This document shows positions 359-49,407 of a DNA stretch of 64,000 nucleotides, piece after piece. Source of the stretch: Methylobacter tundripaludum SV96 (lineage in GTDB: Bacteria > Pseudomonadota > Gammaproteobacteria > Methylococcales > Methylomonadaceae). The notes beneath the pieces are model-generated. The model saw only the letters and a list, made by a program, of their open reading frames with translations. It searched no databases and was not told the DNA's origin. The DNA lies in assembly GCF_000190755.2 (NCBI RefSeq), contig NZ_JH109152.1, positions 248,001-312,000 of the forward strand, written 5' to 3'. Within the stretch, counting starts at the first letter, position 1. Each line of letters opens with the position of its first letter. The position numbers and the translations under genes were made by a program.

Positions 359-2212
359 ATGCCAACCGTACATCGCTGCCATCCCATGCCTTTCGGAACT
401 CATATACTGGATGACGGCAGGGTCAGTTTTCGATTATGGGCGCCTGGAGCCGATAAGGTTGAATTGTGCCTGCAAGGGCATGCGCCCGAAATCAGCTTGA
501 CCATGGCGGCGGAAGCCGGTGGCTGGTACGGCATTACGACCGGACTCGCCGGTAGCGGATTTTATTACCAGTACCGGATCGATGGCAGGCGCTATGTGCC
601 CGATCCTGCATCCCGCTATCAGCCGCAGGACGTCGAGGGCTCCAGTCAAATTATCGATCCCGATTCATGGCAATGGCATGACGCGGCCTGGAAAGGACGG
701 CCCTGGGAAGAGGCGGTGTTTTATGAGCTGCATGTGGGCACCTTTACTGAACAAGGCACTTTTGCCGGGGTAAAGGAACGTCTGGATTATCTGGTCGATT
801 TGGGCGTGACTGCAATCCAGTTGATGCCCATTGCCGATTTTCCCGGTCGCCATAATTGGGGCTACGACGGCGTGTTGCCGTTTGCGCCTGACAGCCGTTA
901 CGGTACGCCCGATGAGCTTAAAGACCTGATTGAAACCGCTCACGCCAAAGGCCTGATGGTCTTTAACGATGTGGTGTACAGCCATTTCGGCCCGGAAGGC
1001 AATTACCTGCATTTGTACGCGCCGGAATTTTTTACCGACCGTTTTCATACGCCCTGGGGCGATGCCATTAATTTCCATCCTGAACAGAGTCATTGGGTGC
1101 GTCGGTTTTTTATCCACAATGCTCTGTATTGGCTGGAGGAATATCATTTCGACGGTTTGCGCTTCGATGCCGCACATGCCATTTTCGATGACTCGTCTCC
1201 GGATATTCTGGAAGAACTGGCCGAAGCGGTTCGGCTGGGGCCTGGATACGATCGCCATGTCTATTTGGTGCTGGAAAACGACAATAATGCCGCCCGTTAT
1301 TTAAGGCACGATCCCTCCTTGCCGCAGCGTTATTTCGATGCGCAATGGAATGACGATATGCATCATGCCCTGCATGTCCTGTTAACCGGGGAAAGTACCG
1401 GTTATTACCGGGATTATAGTCAGCAGCCTATCCACCAACTGGGTCGTTGTTTAACCGAAGGTTTCGCTTATCAGGGCGAAGTCTCCGCTTATCGGGACGG
1501 AAAACATCGGGGCGAGTCCTGTTCGGATTTGCCATTGACGGCTTTCGTCTCCTTTTTACAAAATCATGACCAGGTAGGCAACCGGGCATTGGGCGAGCGC
1601 ATCTCAAATCTTTGCCCACCGGAAGCCCTGCGAGCGGCGACAGCGATATTATTGCTGTCGCCGTCGCCACCCTTGCTGTTTATGGGGCAGGAGTGGGCCT
1701 GTAGCCAGCCATTCACCTACTTTGTGGATTTTCCCGAAGCGTTGGGCGAGAAAGTGAACGAGGGGCGATTACAGGGATTCGCCAAGCTCGCGGCGTTTAA
1801 CGATGTTGAAATGCGCCGAAAAATACCGTTACCCAATGCCATTGAAACCTATCAAGCGGCCAAGCTTGCATGGGACGAATTAGAACGGGAGCCGCATCAA
1901 CAATGGTTCGACTATCACCGGGAGTTATTGCGTATTCGTCACCGTCAGATAAGCCCAAGGCTAAAGGCAATGGCCCCAGGATCAGCCCAGTACCGGGTTT
2001 TGGATGACCGGGCAATAAGCGTGCAATGGCGCTTGAACGACGGATCGACTTTAATGCTGGCGGCCAATCTGGGCAGTGAATCGGCAAAGGTTGACTGTCC
2101 AGGTAACGGTGAGGTGTTGTTTGCCAGCGATTCCAAGGTTAAGAAGAACTTGAGACAAGGCAGTTTAAGTCCTTGGTCAGTCATTTTTTACTTGAAGGAA
2201 GCCAAGAAATGA
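359..2212 (+). CDS. treZ: Malto-oligosyltrehalose trehalohydrolase
   Basis: GH13 family enzyme that releases trehalose from maltooligosyltrehalose, the second step of the TreY/TreZ route from glycogen-type glucans. Length (617 aa) suits the family. An N-terminal beta-sandwich (about 1-95) precedes the TIM barrel. Visible GH13 motifs are DVVYSHFGPEGNYL (204 on), GLRFDAAH with nucleophile Asp270, VYLVLEN with acid Glu306, and FLQNHDQVGNR with Asp404. The start is the first Met; Met10 (MPFGTH) is an alternative, and no strong ribosome binding site decides between them. treY and glgX are not in the window. Cytoplasmic, probably for compatible-solute synthesis. Confidence 0.93.
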   Translation: MPTVHRCHPMPFGTHILDDGRVSFRLWAPGADKVELCLQGHAPEISLTMAAEAGGWYGITTGLAGSGFYYQYRIDGRRYVPDPASRYQPQDVEGSSQIIDPDSWQWHDAAWKGRPWEEAVFYELHVGTFTEQGTFAGVKERLDYLVDLGVTAIQLMPIADFPGRHNWGYDGVLPFAPDSRYGTPDELKDLIETAHAKGLMVFNDVVYSHFGPEGNYLHLYAPEFFTDRFHTPWGDAINFHPEQSHWVRRFFIHNALYWLEEYHFDGLRFDAAHAIFDDSSPDILEELAEAVRLGPGYDRHVYLVLENDNNAARYLRHDPSLPQRYFDAQWNDDMHHALHVLLTGESTGYYRDYSQQPIHQLGRCLTEGFAYQGEVSAYRDGKHRGESCSDLPLTAFVSFLQNHDQVGNRALGERISNLCPPEALRAATAILLLSPSPPLLFMGQEWACSQPFTYFVDFPEALGEKVNEGRLQGFAKLAAFNDVEMRRKIPLPNAIETYQAAKLAWDELEREPHQQWFDYHRELLRIRHRQISPRLKAMAPGSAQYRVLDDRAISVQWRLNDGSTLMLAANLGSESAKVDCPGNGEVLFASDSKVKKNLRQGSLSPWSVIFYLKEAKK

Positions 2213-2316
2213 TCGGCCTGATAGCCTCGTAAGGTGCGCTGTGCGTACCTTTCAGCATTCAATGATACGCGCAGAGTATCTATACATGCAGGACCAAATA
2301 TCTTCGGATAACTAGA

Positions 2317-4047
2317 ATGCGATTAATTCCTGCAAGCCTCAGCGTTGTGCTATTCATACTGCTGTATTTAGCTGCCCCCGGCGTTGATGCAAAAGTCTCT
2401 GTCACCGGACTTGAAAGCGAAGCCAAAAAAAATGTTCAGCTCATGCTGTCGCTTTCGGAAGAAAAATGCGCATCGCCGGAATGGAAAATACGCGGCTTGT
2501 TTGACAAAGCCGATGAAGAAATATCCCAGGCTTTGCGGGCTTTGGGTTATTACCATCCCGTCATCAAAAAATCATTGGCTTTCAATACTGAATGTTGGCA
2601 GGCGGACTTTACGCTTGATTCCGGCCCGCAGACCATCGTTGCCGACATCGCTATCAACCTCATTGGCGATGCCCGCGACGACCCTGAATTTCAAAAACTG
2701 CGTAATACGCTGCTAACCGCAACCGGTAAGCCTTTGCGCCACGATCAATACGAAAAGATGAAGAGTCGGCTTGAATCGCTGGCATTGGAAAGAGGTTATT
2801 TGCAAGCCTCGTTTCCGGAAAAAAAACTGCTCATCGATAAAGCCGCCAACAAGGCGCACATCAAGCTGGTCTTTGATACCGGAAAACGCAGGGTGTTTGG
2901 TGACGTTATTGTCGAACAGGATATTTTGAATCCCGAGTTTGTCGGTAAATTCATTACCATCAAAAGCGGCGATTTTTATTCCGGCGAGCAACTGGCTAAA
3001 ACGCATAATGCGCTGTCAAAAAGCGGCTATTTCAAGAGCGTGGAGATACGCCCCGATACCGCTTATGTCGACCCAAAGCGAGTCCCCGTCACCGTTAAAC
3101 TGTACCCTGAAAAAATCCATCATTACGGCTTCGGCGTAGGTTTCGACACCGACATCGGGCCGTTGCTGAATGCTTCGTATAAAAACCGCCGATTGAATCG
3201 CCGGGGCCATTTTCTTAACGCCAATATCGATCTTTCACCGGTGCTGTCAACGGCGGATGTTGAATACACCGTACCGTTGGACAACCCGGCCGGCGATTTC
3301 TTCAGCTTCGGCGGCGGGCTCAAGCGAGAAGATACCGACACTTATAAGTCCCTGTCGGGCAAACTTTCCGCGCGCTTGAAACACGATTTCGACAGCGGTT
3401 GGAAGCAGACGCTGTTTATCGACTCCGTCTACGAAGACTTTAGTACCGGCACAATCTCAAATCAGGTGCTTTTGTTAGTGCCGGGCGGCAGTTGGCTGCG
3501 TTCTGTTTCCGATAACGCACTGCGCCCCACCCGAGGCCATCGCCTGGAGTTTAACCTGGCCGGTAGCTATAAAAATCCAATCTCCGATGTCAGTTTTGCG
3601 CAGGGTTCGGCATCCGCGGTATGGATACACCCGTTACCCTGGAGCGGCAAATTGATTGCCCGAACCGAGCAAGGCGCAACGCTGGTCGACCAATTCGAGA
3701 GGCTGCCGACCTCGTACCGGTTTTATGCCGGCGGTATGAACAGCATACGCGGCTACGCTTATAAAGAACTGGGGCCTAAGGATAATTTGGGCAATGTGGT
3801 CGGCGGCAAGTTCTTAAGCGTAGTCAGCGCGGAATACGAACAGGCCGTGCTTGATGACTGGGGTGTCGCGGCCTTTATCGACGGCGGTAACGCTTATAAT
3901 CTGGATCATATCAGCATTAAAACCGGCGTGGGTTTGGGCGTCAGGTGGTATTCGCCTATCGGTCCGATTCGGCTGGATTTCGCCTTGCCGTTGAGCGAAT
4001 CGGATTCCTCGTTTCAAATCCATTTTGCCGCGGGGGCACGGCTATGA
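2317..4047 (+). CDS. tamA: Outer-membrane translocation and assembly module subunit TamA
   Basis: Omp85-family outer-membrane protein that works with TamB in inserting or supplying outer-membrane components. The 576-aa product has a signal peptide (about 1-25, cut after VDA), a periplasmic POTRA region to about residue 265, and a 16-strand-type barrel beginning near 'YGFGVGFDTDIGP'. The Omp85 lid-lock motif is visible as GGMNSIRGYAYKELGP near residue 470. It lies 104 bp after treZ. tamB normally follows directly; here 642 bp of repeats intervene, so cotranscription is doubtful. Confidence 0.9.
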   Translation: MRLIPASLSVVLFILLYLAAPGVDAKVSVTGLESEAKKNVQLMLSLSEEKCASPEWKIRGLFDKADEEISQALRALGYYHPVIKKSLAFNTECWQADFTLDSGPQTIVADIAINLIGDARDDPEFQKLRNTLLTATGKPLRHDQYEKMKSRLESLALERGYLQASFPEKKLLIDKAANKAHIKLVFDTGKRRVFGDVIVEQDILNPEFVGKFITIKSGDFYSGEQLAKTHNALSKSGYFKSVEIRPDTAYVDPKRVPVTVKLYPEKIHHYGFGVGFDTDIGPLLNASYKNRRLNRRGHFLNANIDLSPVLSTADVEYTVPLDNPAGDFFSFGGGLKREDTDTYKSLSGKLSARLKHDFDSGWKQTLFIDSVYEDFSTGTISNQVLLLVPGGSWLRSVSDNALRPTRGHRLEFNLAGSYKNPISDVSFAQGSASAVWIHPLPWSGKLIARTEQGATLVDQFERLPTSYRFYAGGMNSIRGYAYKELGPKDNLGNVVGGKFLSVVSAEYEQAVLDDWGVAAFIDGGNAYNLDHISIKTGVGLGVRWYSPIGPIRLDFALPLSESDSSFQIHFAAGARL

Positions 4048-4142
4048 ATGCGGAAAAAGCAGTTTGTCCACGAAAGACACGAAAAGCACGAAAATATTCA
4101 GCGAGATGCGGCATTGCATCGGTAGGGCGCGCCGCGCGCGCC

Positions 4143-4592
4143 TTAAGGACTCCATCAATAATAACTTCCGCTTATGGTTCCCACGCTCTGCGCTCATCGT
4201 TATACATAAGTGTTTGCGAGATACCCTCGTTTCCACGCTCTGCGCTCATCTTTATACACAAGTCTATCGAAGAGCGTCATTTCGATATGGACGCTGGAAT
4301 GGCGGGCTCGGATGTAGGCCGGAATAAGGCCATCCAAGCGCATCGCGCGAGGTGGCGTTTCCGGCAAGTTCGTGAGGAGTTTGCCGGAAACGCCAGTTCT
4401 CGCTATCGCTCGAACCGGCTTATTCCGGCCTACTTCGAGATGTGTATAAAAGACGAGCGCTCTGCGTGGTAACCCGGTCAGGGATGTTTCAGCGTCCCGA
4501 AGCGCAGAGCGGTTCAGGCTGCATTCCCACGCAGAGCGTGGGAACGATGGAGTTTATGTTTCATGAAGCTATTACCGACCGTATCCAAAGCC
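4143..4592. repeat. Left arm of large inverted repeat flanking tamB
   Basis: This arm is matched in reverse complement by 8150-8774 on the far side of tamB. Matching landmarks are ttaaggactccatcaataat (4143 on) against its complement ending at 8774, the 120-bp palindromic element at 4314-4433, and 'attaccgacc.tatcc.aa' at 4571-4590 against the complement near 8155-8175. The arm holds several copies of a terminal-repeat-like unit TTCCCACGCTCTGCGCTC followed by TTATACA, at about 4179, 4231 and (inverted) 4441. It is shorter than the right arm because the right arm carries an extra insert. Confidence 0.85.
4314..4433. repeat. 120-bp palindromic element, copy 1
   Basis: Starts GTAGGCCGGAATAAG and ends CTTATTCCGGCCTAC. 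An inner palindrome, GGCGTTTCCGGCAA against TTGCCGGAAACGCC, frames a short variable centre. The same 120-bp unit occurs at 8536-8655 (inverted) and 37054-37173. No coding capacity. It resembles a REP/BIME-type or MITE-type intergenic repeat; the family name is unknown to me. Confidence 0.85.
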
Positions 4593-4689
4593 TTAAGGCG
4601 CGCGCGGCACGCCCTACAGCAGAGGCCTCCAAGCCGGGAACAGCGGCGAGCGAGAATCGTGTTTTCGCGAACCCGGCGCGGTTTTTAAG

Positions 4690-7600
4690 ATGAAGAAACG
4701 TATTCTTCTGATTAGTTTGATTCTGGTGCTGATGACGCCTGTCGGTTTGCTCGGGTTGATGAACAGCATAACCGGCAGCCGCTGGCTGTTGCAGACGATT
4801 TTCTCAAGTTTACCGATACAGGCTTCAGTTAAAACCATTGATGGCCGGATACTTGAACGTATTGTGCTCACTGATCTGATCTATAAAAGCGATACGGGAA
4901 CGGTCGCCGTTAAAAAACTGGTGTTCGTTTGGCAACCTTCCAAATTGTTCTCGGGCACTTTAAAAATTGTCGATATGACCATGGAAGGGGTAAACATCAG
5001 CCTGACCGAAACAACACCGCCTGCGGAAGAAAGCGGTTTCGACCTTAATGCCGAACTACGGTTGCCGGTGCAAATCGTGCTTGAAAACCTGCTGTTGACG
5101 GATCTAACCTTTCAGCAAGGCGAGCAAGTCCAACAACTGGAAAAACTGCACTTGTCGGCATTTACCGAACACGGTCGACTTAATATCGTCTCGCTGGATG
5201 TTAATGCCAAACCGGGAGTTGCAACGGCAAAAGGACAAATGGGCTTGGGCAAGGGGTTTCCATTCAGTTTGACTGCCGATTGGCAGGTCACAACAGCAGA
5301 TTACGGTTTATGGCAAGCGACAGCCACGGTCAACGGCGACATGCATCAGCTGGTTTTCGACAATCGGTTGTCATCGCCGTTCAAATCAGCTTTGAAAGGC
5401 AGTCTGGATGATTTGCAGGATGCGCCGCGTATAACCGCGCACGGCGATTGGCAACAGCTTAATTGGCCGCTGAGTGGCGGCAAACCGCAGATGACCAGCG
5501 AACAAGGATCTGTTGAGTTGACCGGTTTGCTCAGCGATTATCAGCTTGTATTGGACGCACAGTTAACCCAGCCGACTTTGCCGAAAGCCCATTTGGCGTT
5601 TAAAGGCAACGGCAGCATGGATGCCTTGTCTATTGAAAAACTGGAACTCAACTCAACGGCAGGGACATTCCAGGTCGACGGCGCTGTGTCCTGGAAAGAC
5701 GCGACGGTTTTCGACCTTAGCGCAAGCGGGCAAAATTTTAATCCCGCCATCCTGTTGCCCGAGCTTCCCGGCAGCCTGACCTTCAGCACCCATCTTAAAG
5801 GCCAGCTGGCCGGGGACGCGTTACAGCTGGATGCCGAGATTAACAAGCTGTCCGGCAAGTTGCGCGGCTATCCGGTTAGCGCAGACGGCAAGCTGGCTTT
5901 GGCAGGCGAGCAGCTCAAGGTCGATGCCCTGCGGATCGTTTCGGGAGCAAATAAAATTGCCGTTAACGGTACGCTGGGACAGCAGCAAGCCGCGCTTGTT
6001 GTCGCAATCGACGCCCCGGCCTTGGAATCGTTATGGCCGAATCTGGGCGGAAGCTTGAAAGGGGAAGGGCGTTTGCAGGGCGCGTGGAAGAATCCTTCGG
6101 TAAAATTTCAGGCTGACGGCAAGCGTCTGCATTTTGCCGGATACCGCGCCGAGCAGGCGGCCGTCAATATCGATTATCAAGCCGATACAAAACTGACCTC
6201 TAAAATACGGTTGTCCGCAAGCGGCATCCAAACCGGCACCCTGCAAATTGCAACACTGCGGGTTGACGGCTTGGGTACGCTTGAGCAACATCATTTTAAA
6301 GCCGACATCAACTCGTCTTACGGTGATGCATCAACCGTGCTGATAGGCAGTTACAAGGCCGGGGTGTGGCTGGGCGATTTTTCCAAACTGGATTTGAATA
6401 CCCGCGATTCCGGCCGCTGGCGGCTTACGAATGATCTGACTATTCGCATAGCGCAAAGCCCCGCCGGAGTGGATGCGACGCTGGCGAAAGCCTGCCTGGT
6501 TCAGCAACAGGCCGCTCTTTGTGCGCAGGGACATTATCCTGCCAACGGCGACTTCCGCTTTCAAGTTAACGCCACGGCCTTACCGCTAAGCCTGATGCAA
6601 GCCTACTTACCCGAGCAGACAAAGTTAAAAGGCATCATCAATGCCGATGCGGACATGCAGCGGGAAAAGGGTTCGCTTAACGGCACTTTCCGGGTGGCTA
6701 TGCCCGCTAACGCAAAGATTCTGTTTCGGACTCAGCAAGGCTCGACTGAACTTACCTTGGGCTCGTCGTCATTATCGGGCAAGCTGAAAGAGACGACGGT
6801 TTCAGCCGACGTAGATCTGGCGCTGACGGGACAGGATTATCTGCGCGGTCAGCTGCAACTGGATACCGGCAAGACTCAAAGCCTGTCCGGGCAGGTAACG
6901 GCATCAATGCTTAACTTTGCGCTGTTGAATCCTTTTGTTCCGCAGTTGTCGAACATCAAAGGCAAGCTTAACGCGGATTTGACCTTACAAGGCAGCACCG
7001 ACAAACCGCTGGTTAACGGAGTAGTGCGTTTCAGCGACGGATCTGTCGATCTTGCTGAGTTAGGGCTGGAACTTCGCGACATCAGGCTAGAGGCTGTTTC
7101 GTCCGCCGATAATGCCGAACGTATTCAGCTAAGCGGCTTTGCAAAATCCGGGCAAGGTTTTGTTAAGCTCGATGGTTTTTCAAGTCTGCAAGGCACAGCA
7201 GACTTGACGCTGAGCGGAACGGATTTTGAAGTCGCCAAATTGCCGGACGCTCAAATAGCCGTTTCGCCGGAGTTAAAAGGCGCGTTTGCCGGGCAGCAAG
7301 GAAAAGTGACCGGCACCTTAAAAATCCCCAAAGCCGTCTTGCAGCTTCCGCAGCTTCCCGAAAATACAGTAAAAGTCAGCAGCGATGAAGTGATTCTCGG
7401 CGAACAAAAAGCCGAGCCAAACGCTACGTCAGCACCCCAAATCGATGCGGAGTTAGACATCGAACTCGGCAAACAGGTCAGCTTTTCAGGGCAAGGGCTG
7501 AAGACCGACTTGTCCGGCAAATTGAAGATGACCAAAACAGGAGAAACAACGGCGATGTACGGCAGCATCGACATGAATAAGGCGCGTTATAAAAGCTACG

Positions 7601-8133
7601 GACAGGATCTTACCGTGCGTAAAGGGCGTTTCCTGTTTAACGGCCCGGTCGATAAGCCCTGGCTGGACGTGGAAGCCATACGCGTTTCAAAAAGCAAAGA
7701 GGTTACCGCTATTCTGAACCTGACCGGCCCGCTGGATACGCCGCAAACGCGTCTGTCTTCGGAACCGGCCCTACCGGAAGAAGAAGTGCTGGCCTATTTG
7801 ATTACCGGCGGCCCGTTAGAAGAGGTCAGCAAATCGGAAGGCAACAGGGTTGCCGCTGCCGCGTTATCTTACGGTTCAGGCAAGTTATCCTGGCTTTCCG
7901 ACAAACTGGGCGTGGACGAATTTGAAGTTCAAGAAGGAAAAACGCTGCAAGATACACTGGCTACGGTAGGGCAATACCTGACACCGGATTTCTATGTGGG
8001 CACCAAGGTCGGCCTGTTTAATAAACAAGCCGTATTGGTATTAAAACGCAAGCTGACCAAGACCTTTAATGTTGAAACCCAGACCGGTACATCGCAAAGA
8101 ATAAAACTTAACTATGAGTTTGATACTGATTGA
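4690..8133 (+). CDS. tamB: Translocation and assembly module subunit TamB
   Basis: Very large inner-membrane-anchored periplasmic protein (1147 aa) of the AsmA-like/TamB family, thought to form a lipid-conducting beta groove between inner membrane and TamA. An N-terminal membrane anchor (about residues 4-24) is followed by long beta-rich repeats. The conserved C-terminal TamB domain (DUF490) is visible in the stretch from 'GSIDMNKARYKSYGQ' through 'LPEEEVLAYLITGGPLEE' to the C-terminal 'INLNYEF'-like tail (IKLNYEFDTD). The gene sits exactly between the arms of a long inverted repeat, so it may lack the usual tamA-coupled transcription. Confidence 0.92.
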   Translation: MKKRILLISLILVLMTPVGLLGLMNSITGSRWLLQTIFSSLPIQASVKTIDGRILERIVLTDLIYKSDTGTVAVKKLVFVWQPSKLFSGTLKIVDMTMEGVNISLTETTPPAEESGFDLNAELRLPVQIVLENLLLTDLTFQQGEQVQQLEKLHLSAFTEHGRLNIVSLDVNAKPGVATAKGQMGLGKGFPFSLTADWQVTTADYGLWQATATVNGDMHQLVFDNRLSSPFKSALKGSLDDLQDAPRITAHGDWQQLNWPLSGGKPQMTSEQGSVELTGLLSDYQLVLDAQLTQPTLPKAHLAFKGNGSMDALSIEKLELNSTAGTFQVDGAVSWKDATVFDLSASGQNFNPAILLPELPGSLTFSTHLKGQLAGDALQLDAEINKLSGKLRGYPVSADGKLALAGEQLKVDALRIVSGANKIAVNGTLGQQQAALVVAIDAPALESLWPNLGGSLKGEGRLQGAWKNPSVKFQADGKRLHFAGYRAEQAAVNIDYQADTKLTSKIRLSASGIQTGTLQIATLRVDGLGTLEQHHFKADINSSYGDASTVLIGSYKAGVWLGDFSKLDLNTRDSGRWRLTNDLTIRIAQSPAGVDATLAKACLVQQQAALCAQGHYPANGDFRFQVNATALPLSLMQAYLPEQTKLKGIINADADMQREKGSLNGTFRVAMPANAKILFRTQQGSTELTLGSSSLSGKLKETTVSADVDLALTGQDYLRGQLQLDTGKTQSLSGQVTASMLNFALLNPFVPQLSNIKGKLNADLTLQGSTDKPLVNGVVRFSDGSVDLAELGLELRDIRLEAVSSADNAERIQLSGFAKSGQGFVKLDGFSSLQGTADLTLSGTDFEVAKLPDAQIAVSPELKGAFAGQQGKVTGTLKIPKAVLQLPQLPENTVKVSSDEVILGEQKAEPNATSAPQIDAELDIELGKQVSFSGQGLKTDLSGKLKMTKTGETTAMYGSIDMNKARYKSYGQDLTVRKGRFLFNGPVDKPWLDVEAIRVSKSKEVTAILNLTGPLDTPQTRLSSEPALPEEEVLAYLITGGPLEEVSKSEGNRVAAAALSYGSGKLSWLSDKLGVDEFEVQEGKTLQDTLATVGQYLTPDFYVGTKVGLFNKQAVLVLKRKLTKTFNVETQTGTSQRIKLNYEFDTD

Positions 8134-8149
8134 AGGCGCGGAATAAGCA

Positions 8150-8774
8150 GGCGTTTAGGATATGGTCGGTAATAACGTCTCGAAATATAAACTCATGGTT
8201 CCCACGCTCTGCGCTCGTCGTTATACACAAGTGTCTGGGTAACTCGTCATACCCGCCGAAGCGGGTATCCAGTGCCATGGATGGCGAGCTGTGTACGTCC
8301 ATGTAGCCTGGATCCCGGCACAAATCCGTCTGGAACGGATTTGCATTAACCCAAAGGGTGTCAGGCAGGATAGCCTGACATGAATCCCTGCCGGGATGAC
8401 GTGCTTTTCAATACTTATGTATAACGGCGAGCGCTCTGCGTGGGAATGCAGCCTGAACCGCTCTGTGGTTCGGGGCGCTGGAGAGGCCCTGACCGGGTTC
8501 CCACGCAGAGCGCTCGTCTTTATACACATCTCGAAGTAGGCCGGAATAAGCCGGTTCGAGCGATAGTGAGAACTGGCGTTTCCGGCAAACTCCTCACGAA
8601 CTTGCCGGAAACGCCACCTCGCGCGATGCGCTTGGATGGCCTTATTCCGGCCTACATCCGAGCCCGCCATTCCAGCGTCCATATCGAAATGACGCTCTTC
8701 GATAGACTTGTGTATAAAGATGAGCGCAGAGCGTGGGAACCCTAAGCGGAAGTTATTATTGATGGAGTCCTTAA
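8150..8774. repeat. Right arm of large inverted repeat flanking tamB
   Basis: Reverse-complement partner of 4143-4592. It includes the palindromic element at 8536-8655 and has an additional insert of roughly 200 bp (about 8232-8411). That insert is bounded by inverted copies of the CCCACGC..GCGCTCGTC.TTATACA unit (8198-8231 and 8412-8443). The insert carries nested palindromes such as 'cccgccgaagcgggt' and 'aatccgtctggaacggatt'. Reading frames through this arm are repeat artefacts. Confidence 0.85.
8536..8655. repeat. 120-bp palindromic element, copy 2
   Basis: Inverted relative to copy 1 at 4314-4433, with the same outer GTAGGCCGGAATAAG / CTTATTCCGGCCTAC ends and inner GGCGTTTCCGGCAA stem. 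Only a few bases differ from copy 1. Confidence 0.85.
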
Positions 8775-8792
8775 TAGAAGCGCATCAATGTT

Positions 8793-8908
8793 GATAGGTA
8801 GTGATACGAATGTTATTGATTTTACGCGCATGTTATAAATTTCAAGGTGTGGATATATCGGTTTTACATTATTCAAATCACCCATGTTTCATATATTCCC
8901 GCCGATAG
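8793..8908 (+). repeat. Leader-like repeat, copy A (upstream of cytochrome c and fae)
   Basis: Shares blocks with 20819-20937, 40941-41000 and 45486-45604: GATAGGTAGTGATACGAAT, then TTATTGATTTTA, CATGTTATAAATTT, GGATATATCGG and TTCCCGCCGATAG. It ends about 146 bp before the cytochrome c start. All four copies lie in the same orientation upstream of plus-strand genes, which suggests a shared promoter or leader, though a neutral repeat is not excluded. Confidence 0.65.
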
Positions 8909-9054
8909 ACGTTAGCGCTGCGGAGCCTGATACGGCTGAGTCTTTCATGGCTCAAGTCACAGGTTATACGCACTACGCTATATTTTAGAGTTCTCCGGGC
9001 TTTGGCCGTGTTTGGCGGCGCTGGAGCGCGACTTATGATTTATGAGAGGTCACA

Positions 9055-9462
9055 ATGAACAAGATATTTCATAGCAAACTTAAAATTATGTCGGCCGTTG
9101 TTATGCTCGGCGGCCTTATGTTATTTCCCTGTCAGTCTGTCTTTGCGCAGGCCCTTTATAAGGTCGAAGGACACAAAGTCGATAAAGCCGCTTTCAATGG
9201 CTGGAATATCTACAGAACGGAAGCGTGCGGAAACTGTCACGAAGCAACTGGAGAAGGCAACGTGAGCAATCCGAATCTGCTTCAAACCATGAAAAACCAG
9301 ACTAAAGAACATTTTCGGAAGGTCATTATCGATGGACATAGAAGCATGTATTCGTTCAGTGGCAACAAAACTGTGGTCGACGGCGTTGATGACTTGTATG
9401 TCTATCTTAAAGGCCGTTCCGACGGCGCTATCCCTGCGGGCGACCTGATGGAGATGAAGTAA
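9055..9462 (+). CDS. Small periplasmic c-type cytochrome
   Basis: A 135-aa precursor with a signal peptide (about 1-32, cleavage near FAQA) and one heme-attachment site CGNCH (Cys58, Cys61, His62). Candidate Met axial ligands lie in the C-terminal half (SMYSFSG). Class I cytochrome c fold is likely. It lies 170 bp ahead of fae, so a role as electron acceptor of a periplasmic C1 dehydrogenase is plausible, but the family (for example MxaG/XoxG/PedF-like) cannot be fixed from sequence alone. Preceded by a purine-rich ribosome binding site (gagaggt). Confidence 0.85.
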   Translation: MNKIFHSKLKIMSAVVMLGGLMLFPCQSVFAQALYKVEGHKVDKAAFNGWNIYRTEACGNCHEATGEGNVSNPNLLQTMKNQTKEHFRKVIIDGHRSMYSFSGNKTVVDGVDDLYVYLKGRSDGAIPAGDLMEMK

Positions 9463-44310: not shown

Positions 44311-45468
44311 ATGATTCCAGATCCAAGCCTTTCATCTCAGGCAACTTTCCGCAATACCCAAACGATTACGCTGTTTCTGGGCGGCGATGTGATGACCGGG
44401 CGGGGCATCGACCAAGTGCTGCCGTACCCCGGTAATCCGCGGATTTATGAACCTTATATGACTTCCGCCAAGGGCTATGTGAGGCTCGCGGAGGAAGTCA
44501 ACGGCCCTATTTCGAAACCGATCGACTTTGCCTATATCTGGGGGGATGCGCTTGAAGAACTCCGGCGCACTAATCCCGACGCCCGCATCATTAACCTTGA
44601 GACGGCGGTGACGTCCAGCCCGGAATTTTGGGCGGGGAAGGGCATCAATTACCGGATGCAGCCGAAGAACATCCCCTGCATTACTGCGGCGAAGATCGAT
44701 TGCTGTGTTCTGTCCAATAATCATGTCCTGGATTGGGGTTATGCCGGGCTGAAAGAGACTTTAACTACGTTGACAGGTGCGAACCTCAAGGCCGCGGGGG
44801 CGGGCCGAAACCTTTCAGAAGCCGAAGCGCCGGCGATTATCGAGGTGGCCGGGAAAGGACGCGTGCTGGTGTTCGGTTTCGGCGACGAAAGCAGCGGCAT
44901 TCCGTGGTTGTGGGGCGCACGCAGAGACAGGCCGGGTGTGAATTTACTGCCGGATTTATCCGGCGACACGGTGCGCCGCATCGCCAAGCGGATATCGGGT
45001 CTTAAGCAAAAAGCCGATTGGGTGGTGGCCTCGATTCACTGGGGCGGAAACTGGGGTTACGAGGTTTTAAGCGCACAAAGGGAATTTGCGCACCGGTTGA
45101 TAGATCAGGCCCTGGTGGACGTGGTGCACGGCCATTCATCGCACCATCCCAAGGGCGTCGAGGTGTACAAGGGCAAACCGATTCTGTTCGGTTGCGGCGA
45201 TTTTCTGAACGACTACGAAGGCATTTCAGGATACGAGGAATTCCGGGGCGATTTGGCCTTGATGTATTTTGTGACCCTGGACTCAGCGACAGGAAAGCTG
45301 GCCAGCTTGATCATGACACCCCTGCAAATCAAACACTTCCGCTTGAATTACGCACACCCTGATGATGTTCATTGGCTGCAGCAAATCCTGGACAGGGAAA
45401 GCCGGTCGCTGGGCGCGAGAATCGAATGGGTCAATGAATACCATCTGGCTTTATCGGTCGGACGCTAA
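44311..45468 (+). CDS. CapA family protein (calcineurin-like fold)
   Basis: A 385-aa protein of the PGA_cap/CapA metallophosphatase-like family. Motifs are LFLGGDVMTGRG, INLETAVTSS, LSNNHVLDWGYAGLKET, VVASIHWGGNWGYEV, VDVVHGHSSHHPKGVEVYKG and LFGCGDFLNDYEG. No signal peptide is evident. Family members take part in poly-gamma-glutamate capsule synthesis or act as uncharacterised phosphoesterases; no capBC genes are nearby, so a capsule role is not supported here. Upstream is a MITE-like repeat and downstream a leader-like repeat. Confidence 0.87.
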   Translation: MIPDPSLSSQATFRNTQTITLFLGGDVMTGRGIDQVLPYPGNPRIYEPYMTSAKGYVRLAEEVNGPISKPIDFAYIWGDALEELRRTNPDARIINLETAVTSSPEFWAGKGINYRMQPKNIPCITAAKIDCCVLSNNHVLDWGYAGLKETLTTLTGANLKAAGAGRNLSEAEAPAIIEVAGKGRVLVFGFGDESSGIPWLWGARRDRPGVNLLPDLSGDTVRRIAKRISGLKQKADWVVASIHWGGNWGYEVLSAQREFAHRLIDQALVDVVHGHSSHHPKGVEVYKGKPILFGCGDFLNDYEGISGYEEFRGDLALMYFVTLDSATGKLASLIMTPLQIKHFRLNYAHPDDVHWLQQILDRESRSLGARIEWVNEYHLALSVGR

Positions 45469-45485: not shown

Positions 45486-45604
45486 GATATAGGTAGTGGT
45501 ACGAATATTGTTGATTTTATTCACATGTTATAAATTTTCAGACGCGGATATATCGGCATTAAATTAGCCGAAACAGGAAATATTTCATTTGTTCCCGCCA
45601 ATAG
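45486..45604 (+). repeat. Leader-like repeat, copy D (upstream of a fae remnant)
   Basis: Nearly the same block order as copy B at 20819-20937: GATATAGGTAGTGGTACGAA, TATTGTTGATTTTATTCACA, TGTTATAAATTTTCAGACGC, GGATATATCGGCATTAAATT and TTGTTCCCGCCAATAG. It ends about 60 bp before a sequence derived from the 3' end of a fae gene. Confidence 0.7.
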
Positions 45605-45662
45605 CCACCAGAAGTGGGGCGGGTGCTATGTAGCTTATGGGGAGCTTTTCAACGGGTCGGGA

Positions 45663-45728
45663 TGTGCCGAAGTGATTGCCCGGAAAGACGTGCAGCAGCA
45701 GTATCATCCGCTTGCGGCGCATGATTAA
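45663..45728 (+). pseudogene. 3' remnant of a second fae gene
   Basis: Reads CAEVIARKDVQQQYHPLAAHD followed by stop when split as CAEVIARKD and VQQQYHPLAAHD. The intact fae ends [18 protein letters not shown]. At DNA level GCCGAAG.GATTGCCC, ACGTGCAG and ATCATCCGCT.GCGGCGC are shared, and similarity continues a few bases past the stop. The upstream 450 bp of the gene are missing. It therefore marks a deletion of a former fae paralog. Confidence 0.7.
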
Positions 45729-45856
45729 AGAGTCAGTCAGGGTAAAAGTATAGGTTACCGGCCATGGACTCTACAAAATCAAAGGGCTTACTTGAAAACG
45801 AAATCCCTTTTTATTGTCTGACACTTGGGTAGGGTGATTTAGTCTAAGTCAGGGTT

Positions 45857-45888: not shown

Positions 45889-47556
45889 ATGTCAGGGGAT
45901 GAAACCCCAGGTTCATCGATGCAGATTCAGGAATCTGGAACTTTGCTAATTGACGGATCGGCCAAAACCAGGCGGACAGACCCCCATTCCATTTCATCCT
46001 ACATCAGACGAATGCATACACTGATTGATCTTTTTGATGTTAAAGACCTCATTCCTCATGGCTATTGTCTGTCGTGGAGTCCCCTATTACTTTGGCTGCA
46101 CGTTGCATCGGATCTGCTGATCGCTCTCGCCTATTATGCCATTCCCCTGATTCTCGTTTATTTTATCCGTCAGCGTAAAGATTTGCCCTATCCGTGGCTG
46201 GTTGTCATGTTTGCCGGATTTATTGTCGCCTGCGGTACCACGCATTTATTGTCGGCTATCACAGTCTGGATACCCATGTATTGGTTGGACGGCTTGCTTA
46301 AAGCCTTTACGGCGATTATTTCGATTGCCACCGCGATACTGATGATATGGGTTGTTCCTCGTGTCTTGTCGGTACCGACCGTTGCACAACTGCAAGCTGA
46401 GATACAGCAAAGAAAAACAGCGGAAGGTGCGTTGCGGGAAAGCGAAAATAAACTGGCCACTATCCTCGACAATGTCGAAGCGTTTATTTATATCAAAGAT
46501 TGCAACTATCAATACCAATACGTCAATCAGCCGGTGCAGCAGTTGTTTGGCAAAGCGGTAAAAGACATCATCGGTAAATCAGATGATGCCTTTTTTGATG
46601 AGGCGACGGCGGCAAAAGTGCATGAAGATAACCGCCGTGTCATTGAGCAGGGCGAGCGTATAGCCACCGAGTATGTTTATACCAACAAGGACAACACCAT
46701 CACCCATGCCTATTTTACCGTTAATCAACCACTACGCCGTGAAGACGGCAGTATTTACGGTTTGTGCGGTATTTCTACCGACATAAGCGAACAAAAACAT
46801 AGGGAACAACAAGACAAGAAACATCTGGACGAACTCGCCCATGTCACTCGCCTTGGGCTGATGGGGGAAATGGCGTCGGGTATCGCTCATGAAGTTAACC
46901 AGCCTCTGACTGCGATTTCCAGTTATACGCAAGTCAGTTTAAACCTTATCAATACTGAAAATCCCGATCTGGTAAGGCTCACCGAGATCTTATCCAAAAC
47001 ACAGCAACAGGCTTTACGAGCGGGACGAATAATTCATCGGATGAGGGAGTTTGTTAAATCCCATTCAAAACATCGTTCAAGCGCCGACGTTAATACCTTG
47101 ATTCATGAGGCTGTCGGCTTGTGTATTGCTGAGCTTAAACAAAACGATATAAAGCTGAAATTTGAGCTGGAGAACAATCTGCCGCCTGTCTATGTTGATC
47201 ATATACAAATTGAGCAGGTCATCATAAACCTGATCAGGAACAGCGTTGAAGCCTTGCAAAATTTATCCGCAAAACAGCAGCGCCAGTTAACCGTTAATAG
47301 TCGATTGGCTCCCAATAATGGCGTACGGGTCGAGGTGAAGGACAATGGGCCGGGACTTGATCAAGATCAACGCCAAAAAATATTAACGCCTTTTTACACC
47401 ACCAAGGCCGACGGTATGGGCATGGGGTTATCCATCAGTCGTTCGCTGATCGAAGCCCATAATGGAACGTTGCATTGCAATAGCCAACCTGGAAAAGGCG
47501 CTACTTTTTATTTCACCCTGCCAAACTATATACAGAGAAAATCCGGCAAGCGGTAA
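45889..47556 (+). CDS. Sensor histidine kinase with an ETR1-type ethylene-binding domain
   Basis: A 555-aa membrane kinase. Residues about 60-150 form three helices matching plant/cyanobacterial ethylene receptors: SDLLIALAYYAIPLILVYF and FAGFIVACGTTHLL. The ETR1 positions Asp25, Tyr32, Ile62, Cys65 and His69 are all kept with identical spacing (Asp75, Tyr82, Ile112, Cys115, His119); Cys and His bind Cu(I) in ETR1. A PAS domain follows (about 180-300), then HisKA with the phosphorylated His in GIAHEVNQPLTAIS. An HATPase shows NLIRNSVEAL, DNGPGL and GMGMGLSISRSL. No response regulator is adjacent. The start is uncertain: ATG 45889, 45919 and 46012 are all possible. Confidence 0.88.
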   Translation: MSGDETPGSSMQIQESGTLLIDGSAKTRRTDPHSISSYIRRMHTLIDLFDVKDLIPHGYCLSWSPLLLWLHVASDLLIALAYYAIPLILVYFIRQRKDLPYPWLVVMFAGFIVACGTTHLLSAITVWIPMYWLDGLLKAFTAIISIATAILMIWVVPRVLSVPTVAQLQAEIQQRKTAEGALRESENKLATILDNVEAFIYIKDCNYQYQYVNQPVQQLFGKAVKDIIGKSDDAFFDEATAAKVHEDNRRVIEQGERIATEYVYTNKDNTITHAYFTVNQPLRREDGSIYGLCGISTDISEQKHREQQDKKHLDELAHVTRLGLMGEMASGIAHEVNQPLTAISSYTQVSLNLINTENPDLVRLTEILSKTQQQALRAGRIIHRMREFVKSHSKHRSSADVNTLIHEAVGLCIAELKQNDIKLKFELENNLPPVYVDHIQIEQVIINLIRNSVEALQNLSAKQQRQLTVNSRLAPNNGVRVEVKDNGPGLDQDQRQKILTPFYTTKADGMGMGLSISRSLIEAHNGTLHCNSQPGKGATFYFTLPNYIQRKSGKR

Positions 47557-47735: not shown

Positions 47736-49139
47736 TTATTTTTCCACTTTAATTGCCAGAAACACAGGGCTGCCTTGACGCTGTATTAAAATGGCGACTG
47801 ATTTACCGGCAGGGAGTTTTGTGACTATTTTTTCAAAATCAGCCGCATCGCGCACGACATTGTTCTGAATGCGTAAGATCACATCGCCACGCTGAATTCC
47901 GGCATCCTTGGCAGTACCCTTGGCAACGTCCTGAACTAACACGCCGTTTTTGGCAATCTGCAAGGTTTCTCTTTGCGTATCGGTTAAGTCAATGACGTTA
48001 ACGCCCAGCCGGTTATGGGGGAGTTTTGGCGCGACTTTAGCTTCTGCCAATTTATCCGCTTCATCCGGCAAAAGTCCGACTTTAAAGTCGAGGGATTTAG
48101 TCTCGCCTTGTCTGATGATTTTTAAGGTGGCTTTGTCATTGATGGGCGTTATGCCTACCATGGGCGGTAAGTCACCCGAGGTTTCAATCTGCTGGCCGTT
48201 AAATTCGGTAATAATGTCGCCAATCTGTAATCCGGCTTTTTCGGCAGGACTGTCGGGCAGCACTTTGGAAACCAACGCTCCCTGCGGTTTTTTCATGCCG
48301 AATGATTCGGCCAGTTCCCGCGTGACATCCTGTATTTGGACGCCTAGCCAGCCATGCGCCGCTTTACCGGTGGCTTTGATTTGGTCGACGACATTCATCA
48401 CTACATCCATGGGGATGGCGAATGAAAGTCCCATAAAACCGCCGGTACGGCTGTAAATCTGGGAGTTTATGCCAACGACTTTGCCTTCCATATTAAACAG
48501 CGGTCCGCCTGAATTGCCGGGATTTATGGCGACGTCGGTTTGTATAAACGGCACATAATTTCCGCCGGGCAGGCTGCGGCCTTTGGCGCTGATGATGCCG
48601 GCCGTCACGGATTGCTCAAATCCAAAAGGGGAGCCTATCGCCAGTACCCACTCGCCGACCTGGAGCTTGTTCGGATTGCCGATGGTAACGGCGGGCAAGT
48701 CTTTGGCATCGACTTTTAATAAGGCGACATCGGTGCGTGCATCGGTGCCGATCACTTTAGCTAACAGTTCCCGGTGGTCGGATAATTTGACTACGATTTC
48801 ATCGGCATCTTTTACTACATGACTATTGGTTAACACGTAACCATCCGGGGAAATAACAAAACCCGAGCCTAATGACGTAGTATCTCTTGGCACATAGCCG
48901 CCGCCCTGTTCATTGAGAAAGCGTTTAAAAAACTCTTCCATTTCAGGAGGCATTCCCTCCGGTAGCTGCGGTTCTTCAGGGGCGTTTTCAGCCTCTGGTG
49001 GCGCTTTTTGCGTGGTGCTGATGTTGACCACGGCAATCCCGTTGGTTTTTACCATGTCGGTAAAATCCGGTAATTGTGCTAACGCGTTTTGATTAAACAA
49101 AACGATCAGAAAAAAACACCACTTAATTTTCTGGAACAT
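47736..49139 (-). CDS. Periplasmic serine protease of the Do (DegP/DegQ/MucD) family
   Basis: A 467-aa protease/chaperone of envelope quality control. A signal peptide (about 1-21, ending ALAQ) precedes a trypsin-like domain with His in LTNSHVVKDA, Asp in GTDARTDVALLKV and Ser in INPGNSGGPLFN. Two PDZ domains follow (GWLGVQIQDV... and NRLGVNVIDL...). The ATG at 49139 (MFQKIKW) is chosen because TGGAGG precedes it by 5 bases; ATG 49151 overlaps that site. Which of DegP, DegQ or MucD is not decidable. A terminator follows the gene. Confidence 0.93.
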   Translation of the reverse strand: MFQKIKWCFFLIVLFNQNALAQLPDFTDMVKTNGIAVVNISTTQKAPPEAENAPEEPQLPEGMPPEMEEFFKRFLNEQGGGYVPRDTTSLGSGFVISPDGYVLTNSHVVKDADEIVVKLSDHRELLAKVIGTDARTDVALLKVDAKDLPAVTIGNPNKLQVGEWVLAIGSPFGFEQSVTAGIISAKGRSLPGGNYVPFIQTDVAINPGNSGGPLFNMEGKVVGINSQIYSRTGGFMGLSFAIPMDVVMNVVDQIKATGKAAHGWLGVQIQDVTRELAESFGMKKPQGALVSKVLPDSPAEKAGLQIGDIITEFNGQQIETSGDLPPMVGITPINDKATLKIIRQGETKSLDFKVGLLPDEADKLAEAKVAPKLPHNRLGVNVIDLTDTQRETLQIAKNGVLVQDVAKGTAKDAGIQRGDVILRIQNNVVRDAADFEKIVTKLPAGKSVAILIQRQGSPVFLAIKVEK

Positions 49140-49407
49140 AAAAACCTCCATTTAATATCATTAATAAAATAACGTATGTTAAAAATAACAGCCAAGGTAA
49201 TAGATATAGCTTTCCAGAAAAGTTCTGTCCTATTTTTAAGGCTGTAGCACTCGCTAGTCTTGATAGTAACAGAGACAAAATATATCTGGATAGCGATATA
49301 AAAAAAATTGCTATCACACTAAAAAGCTTTATTATCCATTAACAACAACTAAGCGTGTTAGTCCTATAAACTTTCTCTCATTTGTCCAGATCACTACCTC
49401 TAATCTA

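Follow-up and report, generated by a model that had tools for sequence, protein, structure and literature searches.

An ethylene-receptor-type sensor kinase in the methanotroph Methylobacter tundripaludum SV96 and its putative link to a shared FixJ-type regulator

RESULTS

An intact sensor kinase gene and its neighbors

The window analyzed here is a stretch of 64,000 nucleotides from the genome of Methylobacter tundripaludum SV96. The forward-strand frame at 45889-47556, reported in the first-pass annotation as an open reading frame, is indeed open throughout (555 codons, 0 internal stops), and the opposite-strand reading of the same interval contains many stops. On the contig, the kinase gene lies at C1:293889-295553. 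The frames of the orthologous loci L065, L063, and L058 open 1 codon ahead of the methionine equivalent to Met42 of the window frame, and that of L060 opens 3 codons ahead. Since the ortholog frames open only 1 to 3 codons ahead of the matching methionine, the true start is most likely Met42 at 46012, which would give a protein of 514 amino acids. The features of the gene and its surroundings are as follows.

44311..45468, + strand: upstream neighbor, CapA-like by eye; an 82% identical homolog lies on the same side in L065/L136
46012..47556, + strand: sensor kinase of 514 amino acids, EBD-PAS-HisKA-HATPase (EBD, ethylene-receptor-type membrane domain); start from the ortholog frames, the frame from 45889 having 41 extra upstream codons
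46087..46374, + strand: ETR1_N ethylene-receptor-type membrane domain (Pfam, residues 67-162 of the 555-codon frame)
46465..46797, + strand: PAS domain, PAS_4 (Pfam, residues 193-303 of the 555-codon frame)
46861..47064, + strand: HisKA dimerization/phosphotransfer domain (Pfam, residues 325-392), with the phospho-His within GIAHEVNQPL
47197..47526, + strand: HATPase_c catalytic domain (Pfam, residues 437-546)
47736..49151, - strand: downstream neighbor, HtrA/Deg-like protease by eye; it adjoins the kinase gene also in L065/L136 and L063/L141
49408-51003: nadB-like gene by eye, after the HtrA/Deg-like gene

At about 45540-45730, shortly before the kinase gene, a small open stretch looks by eye like a gene fragment.

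The ETR1_N domain (PF25487) scored 130.1 bits (E = 3.7e-38) against a curated cut-off of 27. The PAS, HisKA, and HATPase domains, which had been placed after the membrane domain, were also found there by Pfam (PAS_4, HisKA, and HATPase_c), each above its cut-off, and the kinase boxes are intact: GIAHE (phospho-His), NLIRNS (N), DNGPG (G1), and GMGMG (G2). A GAF domain following the membrane domain was absent among the Pfam matches; PAS_4 stands there instead. In the AlphaFold2 model of the 514-amino-acid protein, helices span residues 24-54, 61-84, and 90-119, with a block pLDDT of 63-83 in that region, and the membrane domain folded alone gave a mean pLDDT of 79; the predicted structure is in line with a three-helix membrane sensor. 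A PDB profile search with the membrane domain returned 0 matches up to E = 1, and a PDB fold search returned 94 matches up to E = 10, none of them at E ≤ 0.001. The best PDB sequence matches of the window protein fell in the PAS-kinase part and were FixL chimeras and ZraS (4gcz and 8a7f among them).

Conservation of the binding residues

The window protein carries the equivalents of ETR1 residues D25, Y32, I35, P36, I62, C65, H69, and K91. The five positions singled out earlier (Asp25, Tyr32, Ile62, Cys65, and His69) were thus confirmed as conserved, and I35 and P36, further members of the seven binding residues of ETR1, complete the set; Y32 and I62 entered the compared set as positions named in the first-pass annotation. 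The Cu(I)-ligand equivalents in the 514-amino-acid protein are C74 (Cys65) and H78 (His69). The ETR1 sequence used as reference has a self-consistent numbering. Identity to ETR1 is 36% (42 of 118 aligned positions). The alignment, described earlier as gapless, is so only from D25 to H69; helices 2 and 3 are separated by a gap of 3 residues, and further gaps occur at the N terminus. According to PMC11819568, ethylene binding in ETR1 depends on seven residues, and C65, D25, and H69 are named among them.

Four orthologs of the window kinase were found, with identities of 85, 80, 74, and 72%. Since a close ortholog (72-85%) is present in only 5 of the 23 genus genomes, the own genome included, the window kinase is an accessory gene. 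One ortholog keeps the genes on both sides, one keeps the downstream genes, and two keep neither. Loss of the Cys/His ligands in orthologs had been named beforehand as a finding that would count against the receptor assignment; all four close orthologs keep both ligands, and their ETR1 residue set is unchanged. Between the window kinase and the four orthologs, the sensor domain showed dN of 0.09-0.15 and dS of 0.38-0.86, and this domain is under purifying selection. The next homolog, at L144, is 56% identical and carries Y32F, I35V, and P36F. Judged by its sequence, the window gene is a real, conserved, and intact bacterial ethylene-receptor-type kinase.

Among the 61 genus places above the ETR1_N cut-off (23 genomes; profile-found places, with 12 non-genus rows and one doubly read place removed), the seven residues are all intact in 51, and both Cys65 and His69 are intact in 59, so that 10 places differ from ETR1 somewhere in the set and 2 are without a copper ligand. 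A wider reading of 74 profile-found rows, which represent 73 distinct places (all 61 genus places and 12 of the 42 outside the genus, one intact place being read twice), gave 62 with all seven residues and 72 with both ligands. The ligand comparison of individually named loci covered the best 80 of 572 confirmed stretches, and residue counts among those 80 are biased upwards because the loci were found partly by a pattern containing the Cys and the His. Ligand losses are rare; copper ligands have been lost in the divergent homologs L154 (H69Q; 5826-9311), L171 (C65S; 3191-6649), and L089 (C65G; 2192-4852). Because some related receptors have lost a ligand, the EBD scaffold can outlive copper binding. 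Changes at positions 35 and 36 were also seen: I35Y in L145/L146, I35M in L137/L142, and P36S in L035/L043.

Five receptor-type proteins in a methanotroph genome

The genome of strain SV96 (4.85 Mb, 3 contigs) contains two AMO/PmoA-family genes, the first in a pmoCAB-like cluster and the second in the A-B-C order of pxmABC (cluster names by reading). The earlier description of the host as a probable methanotroph is confirmed by these clusters, and on its gene content the host is a Methylobacter-type methanotroph. ETR1_N exceeded the cut-off at five places in this genome, and each of the five proteins carries all seven residues and the K91 equivalent.

C1:293889-295553: protein A, the window kinase, EBD-PAS-HisKA-HATPase
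C1:1641194: protein B, EBD-PAS-kinase, 1026 amino acids
C1:2477561: protein C, EBD-PAS-kinase, 900 amino acids, neighbor of D
C1:2481572: protein D, EBD-PAS-kinase, 1161 amino acids, neighbor of C
C2:919686: protein E, EBD-PAS-GGDEF-EAL, 1183 amino acids

A sixth candidate at C2:483393-483518 (L049 4268-4612) was rejected, its score of 22.4 bits being below 27 and its frame by eye not EBD-like. A CHASE protein (C2:486611) is encoded roughly 3 kb from this sub-threshold match, and a receiver is close by.

The profile had no match in 14 control genomes. Copies above the cut-off number 61 in the genus; they occur in 20 of the 23 genomes, and 19 of those 20 carry at least two. Across the 81 genomes of the order, 35 of 49 in family f1, 7 of 8 in family f4, and 0 of 24 of the rest have the domain above the cut-off; within the order it is limited to these two families. 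A phylum-wide sample gave a match in 29 of 398 genomes, 28 of them, including the own genome, above the cut-off; among the other 27, multiple copies were seen in G347 and G229 only. Three EBD kinases of the same taxonomic order have a receiver gene directly downstream or overlapping (L137 4852-6537, L142 4785-6413, and L078 5986-7440).

Genes of the pMMO/AMO family occur in 37 of the 42 relatives with an EBD above the cut-off and in 31 of the 39 without one (81 genomes); no link between the EBD and methane oxidation was found by co-occurrence. The other two genomes of the phylum sample with strong AMO matches (G182 and G267) have no EBD. An etnE-type gene (PF01717) gave no match in the own genome; the same model finds members in 10 of the 14 control genomes.

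A phylogeny of the domain, proposed earlier as a check, was built from 119 rows and 130 columns, with 16 of 135 rows (Nostocales near-copies) left out and without Synechocystis. The window domain groups with Methylococcales domains, among Methylobacter-type ones and apart from a cyanobacterial-verrucomicrobial group, but only 8 of the 116 inner branches are starred and the single plant row sits on a long branch. The closest five rows to the window domain all come from the own genus or bear the name Methylobacter, at the same weak branch support (8 of 116 starred), and the 20 cyanobacterial rows lie apart from it. Recent acquisition from cyanobacteria or plants was unsupported, the nearest rows of this weakly supported 130-column tree being from the own genus or Methylobacter. 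The domain, labeled "plant-type" at first, is not specifically so: it sits among proteobacterial ones (with weak support), occurs in 29 of 398 phylum genomes, and is joined to a FixL-like bacterial kinase part.

A kinase module shared with a FixJ-adjacent kinase

No response regulator had been noted beside the kinase gene, and the contig agrees: the nearest receiver-domain matches, at C1:240495-240827 and C1:361619-361957, lie beyond the window, at over 50 kb from the gene. The genome as a whole has 82 receiver-domain matches. In a tblastn comparison, the kinase module of protein A shared 60-72% identity with the modules of C, D, and three EBD-less kinases, and at most 34% with any other kinase of the genome. 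Among the six kinases sharing the module, the phosphotransfer regions are 74-95% identical; one of the six has a receiver fused in front, and only one adjoins a regulator gene. The kinase of sibling B is of a different type.

The kinase gene at C2:688524-690431 overlaps the gene of a receiver-LuxR (FixJ-type) regulator, P0002 (C2:690421-691068). The phosphotransfer domain of A is 91% identical to that of this kinase, and the two agree at 9 of the 10 positions compared downstream of the phospho-His, which were chosen on the basis of specificity studies. The paralogy of the modules suggests P0002 as the most likely partner of the window kinase.

The FixJ-type regulator was found in 15 of 16 genus genomes (the own genome included; not G014) and in G052, among 25 genomes searched. 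In all 16 genomes having it, a phosphotransfer domain of the same type lies about 0.4 kb upstream on the same strand, which is the distance expected for the rest of the kinase; this domain is 69-89% identical to that of A in the genus and 50% identical in G052. The kinase-FixJ pair also occurs in G002 and G003, which are without an EBD above the cut-off. We infer a core kinase-regulator pair that was later joined by kinases with other sensors, including the ethylene-type one.

A second copy of the regulator gene, at L208 (G012:C11:85027-85569), has six in-frame stops and no such kinase beside it. At L054 5288-7960 (C3 of the genome), an NMT1/THI5-type binding domain is fused to the module of the window kinase; this kinase may be another input to the putative shared regulator.

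A CHASE operon and a GGDEF-EAL fusion

Downstream of gene B, in the same orientation, come genes for a kinase with a CHASE domain, a single receiver, and a receiver-PAS-GGDEF protein. This conserved operon of EBD-kinase, CHASE-kinase, receiver, and receiver-GGDEF lies at L046 1498-8554 (C1:1634497-1641553) and occurs also at L067, L080, L089, L209, and others. EBD-CHASE pairs within 7 kb were found in 7 of 81 genomes (G000, G001, G010, G011, G012, G019, and G047), always on the same strand with CHASE downstream. At 12 loci with the pair (11 distinct places), the CHASE gene is directly next in ten and comes after one more kinase in L074; since the loci were chosen for having the pair, this count gives no operon frequency. 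The complete four-gene order was seen in L046 (own genome), L089, and L209 (other genus of the family). In L085 the receiver is present, with no receiver-GGDEF within 1.9 kb after it, and the other pair loci end at contig or fetched-segment ends before the full order would be visible. Some EBD copies of these operons deviate at binding residues: L067 (Y32F), L089 (C65G), and L171 (Y32F, I62F, and C65S). The CHASE domain is the sensor domain of plant cytokinin receptors (PMC7700396). By domain assignment, two sensor domains of the plant-hormone-receptor type thus stand side by side in methanotrophs.

Proteins of the E type, EBD-GGDEF-EAL, occur in 17 of the 23 genus genomes (the own genome and 16 others) and also in G023; all 17 E-type loci from other genomes show both GGDEF and EAL. 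At L176 2-3245 (G011), the EBD-GGDEF-EAL reading is split into two overlapping frames, with the EAL in the second, by a frameshift or an assembly error. The fusion may not be new, because PMC7700396 already describes bacterial ethylene-binding proteins with a variety of output domains.

DISCUSSION

Bacterial ethylene receptors are already known, and the window kinase is one more protein of this type, in a methanotroph with an expanded set of them. No ethylene receptor in a methanotroph was found among the listed titles and abstract openings of the open-license literature, a body that leaves subscription journals mostly outside. The closest likeness is to AzoEtr1 of Azospirillum brasilense, an EBD-PAS-kinase of 525 amino acids that binds ethylene in experiments (PMC11819568); both have an N-terminal three-helix EBD with the seven residues, one PAS domain, and a histidine kinase (525 versus 514 amino acids). 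However, AzoEtr1 has an overlapping gene for a single-domain response regulator, while the window kinase has no regulator nearby, and AzoEtr1 is described as one such gene in a plant associate, while this methanotroph has five. SynEtr1 (Slr1212) of Synechocystis is likewise a bacterial EBD on a histidine kinase, with cell surface and biofilm as its output (PMC11819568, PMC6682694, and PMC7700396); in these sources it doubles as a light receptor and signals with a regulator of its own, Slr1213, unlike the window kinase with no adjacent regulator. In the tree, domains from cyanobacteria group separately, with weak support. Plant ethylene receptors such as ETR1 have a GAF domain after the membrane domain. 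The window kinase shares with Arabidopsis ETR1 the seven binding residues and the gapless D25-H69 alignment, but it has PAS in place of GAF and a FixL-like bacterial kinase module. Its PAS-HisKA-HATPase module resembles that of FixL-type kinases (253.9 bits to NCBIfam NF041777), although a different sensor domain stands in front, and FixL membership was rejected because this score is far below the curated cut-off of 850.

We think it probable, with modest confidence, that the window kinase is a membrane ethylene sensor acting as an add-on input through the shared FixJ-type regulator. The three helices would bind Cu(I) via C74 and H78, and the bound Cu(I) would bind ethylene or a similar small unsaturated gas. 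Ligand binding would alter the PAS-linked kinase and its autophosphorylation on the His of GIAHEVNQPL. The kinase, having no adjacent regulator of its own, would then phosphorylate the shared FixJ-type regulator (C2:690421-691068), thus adding an ethylene input to a core two-component system of a Methylobacter-type methanotroph. This model starts from the domains, the seven residues, the ortholog conservation, the paralog set, and the core kinase-regulator pair as observed; copper and ethylene binding, the response direction, the FixJ-type regulator as the phosphotransfer target, and the regulon are what we infer.

The model could fail at the signal. Methane monooxygenase of the particulate type (pMMO) is a copper enzyme, the host has pmoCAB- and pxmABC-like clusters, and the Cu(I) ligands are kept in 59 of 61 genus places, all of which would suit a domain that reports the Cu(I) loading of the membrane and serves the methanotroph copper switch. 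But D25, Y32, I35, P36, and I62, which a plain copper site does not need, are conserved as well, and inspection by eye of the window's frames at 40-53 kb recognized no copper or methane-oxidation gene. That copper serves as signal instead of cofactor, an option raised in the first-pass annotation, gained no support here, and we hold it to be quite improbable. Cu(I)-olefin chemistry is not specific for ethylene, and sequence cannot separate ethylene from acetylene, CO, or propylene as the Cu(I) ligand. The same fold and copper site might therefore serve propylene, acetylene, CO, or another unsaturated gas of methane-rich sediments, and the changes at positions 35 and 36 in homologs could retune binding; the window protein and its four close orthologs, however, keep the ETR1 set unchanged, and a different natural ligand seems unlikely, if a little less so than a copper signal. 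In the characterized relatives, copper is a cofactor (PMC11819568), a further point against the copper sensor.

It could also fail at the partner, and here the doubt is larger. With 82 receiver-domain matches in the genome, none within 50 kb of the kinase gene, and a single-domain receiver in the operon of sibling B, an ethylene-sensing kinase might signal to another orphan regulator or by wide cross-talk. Against this stand the 91% identity of its phosphotransfer domain to that of the FixJ-adjacent kinase and the different type of the sibling B kinase; we regard another partner as rather less likely than P0002, yet the most serious of the alternatives. Finally, the EBD might be an inert anchor in the membrane, left over from paralog swapping and attached to a kinase that still works, as the copies with a lost ligand (L154, L171, and L089) and the recurrence of the same output module on several kinases with other sensors would allow. 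Such a relic or decoy is very unlikely given that dN in the sensor domain is well below dS in four ortholog pairs and that 7 of 7 binding residues are kept.

Taken more broadly, ethylene perception in Methylobacter-type methanotrophs may be an elaborated network with several receptors per genome, feeding the FixJ-type regulator and, by two routes, c-di-GMP. We offer this tentatively, as a possibility short of an even chance. Add-on kinases such as the window gene would act on the shared FixJ-type regulator, the EBD-PAS-GGDEF-EAL protein would act on c-di-GMP directly, and the four-gene operon of EBD-kinase, CHASE-kinase, receiver, and receiver-GGDEF would reach c-di-GMP as well. The network might warn of a gas from which the methane monooxygenase of the cell itself makes a toxic epoxide, or it might mark plant roots. 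Ethylene toxicity to methanotrophs is a documented hazard (PMC11507031); the word "receptor" does not occur in the accessible text of that source. Because the genome has no PF01717 match, there is no obvious ethylene-detoxification target, a point against the model of an ethylene sensor, and ethylene/epoxide catabolism was rejected as the target on this ground.

The gene is of note for its setting, which combines an enlarged set of receptor-type proteins in methanotrophs with a plausible shared regulator and with a conserved operon in which two plant-hormone-receptor-type sensors stand together with a diguanylate cyclase. Ethylene sensing by methanotrophs thereby becomes testable, with the binding assay of AzoEtr1 as the precedent and the ligand-loss variants of the genus as natural negative controls. 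If the proposal is true, the receptor set would supply a sensor and tie the consumption of methane in wetlands and rice paddies to ethylene from plants or soil.
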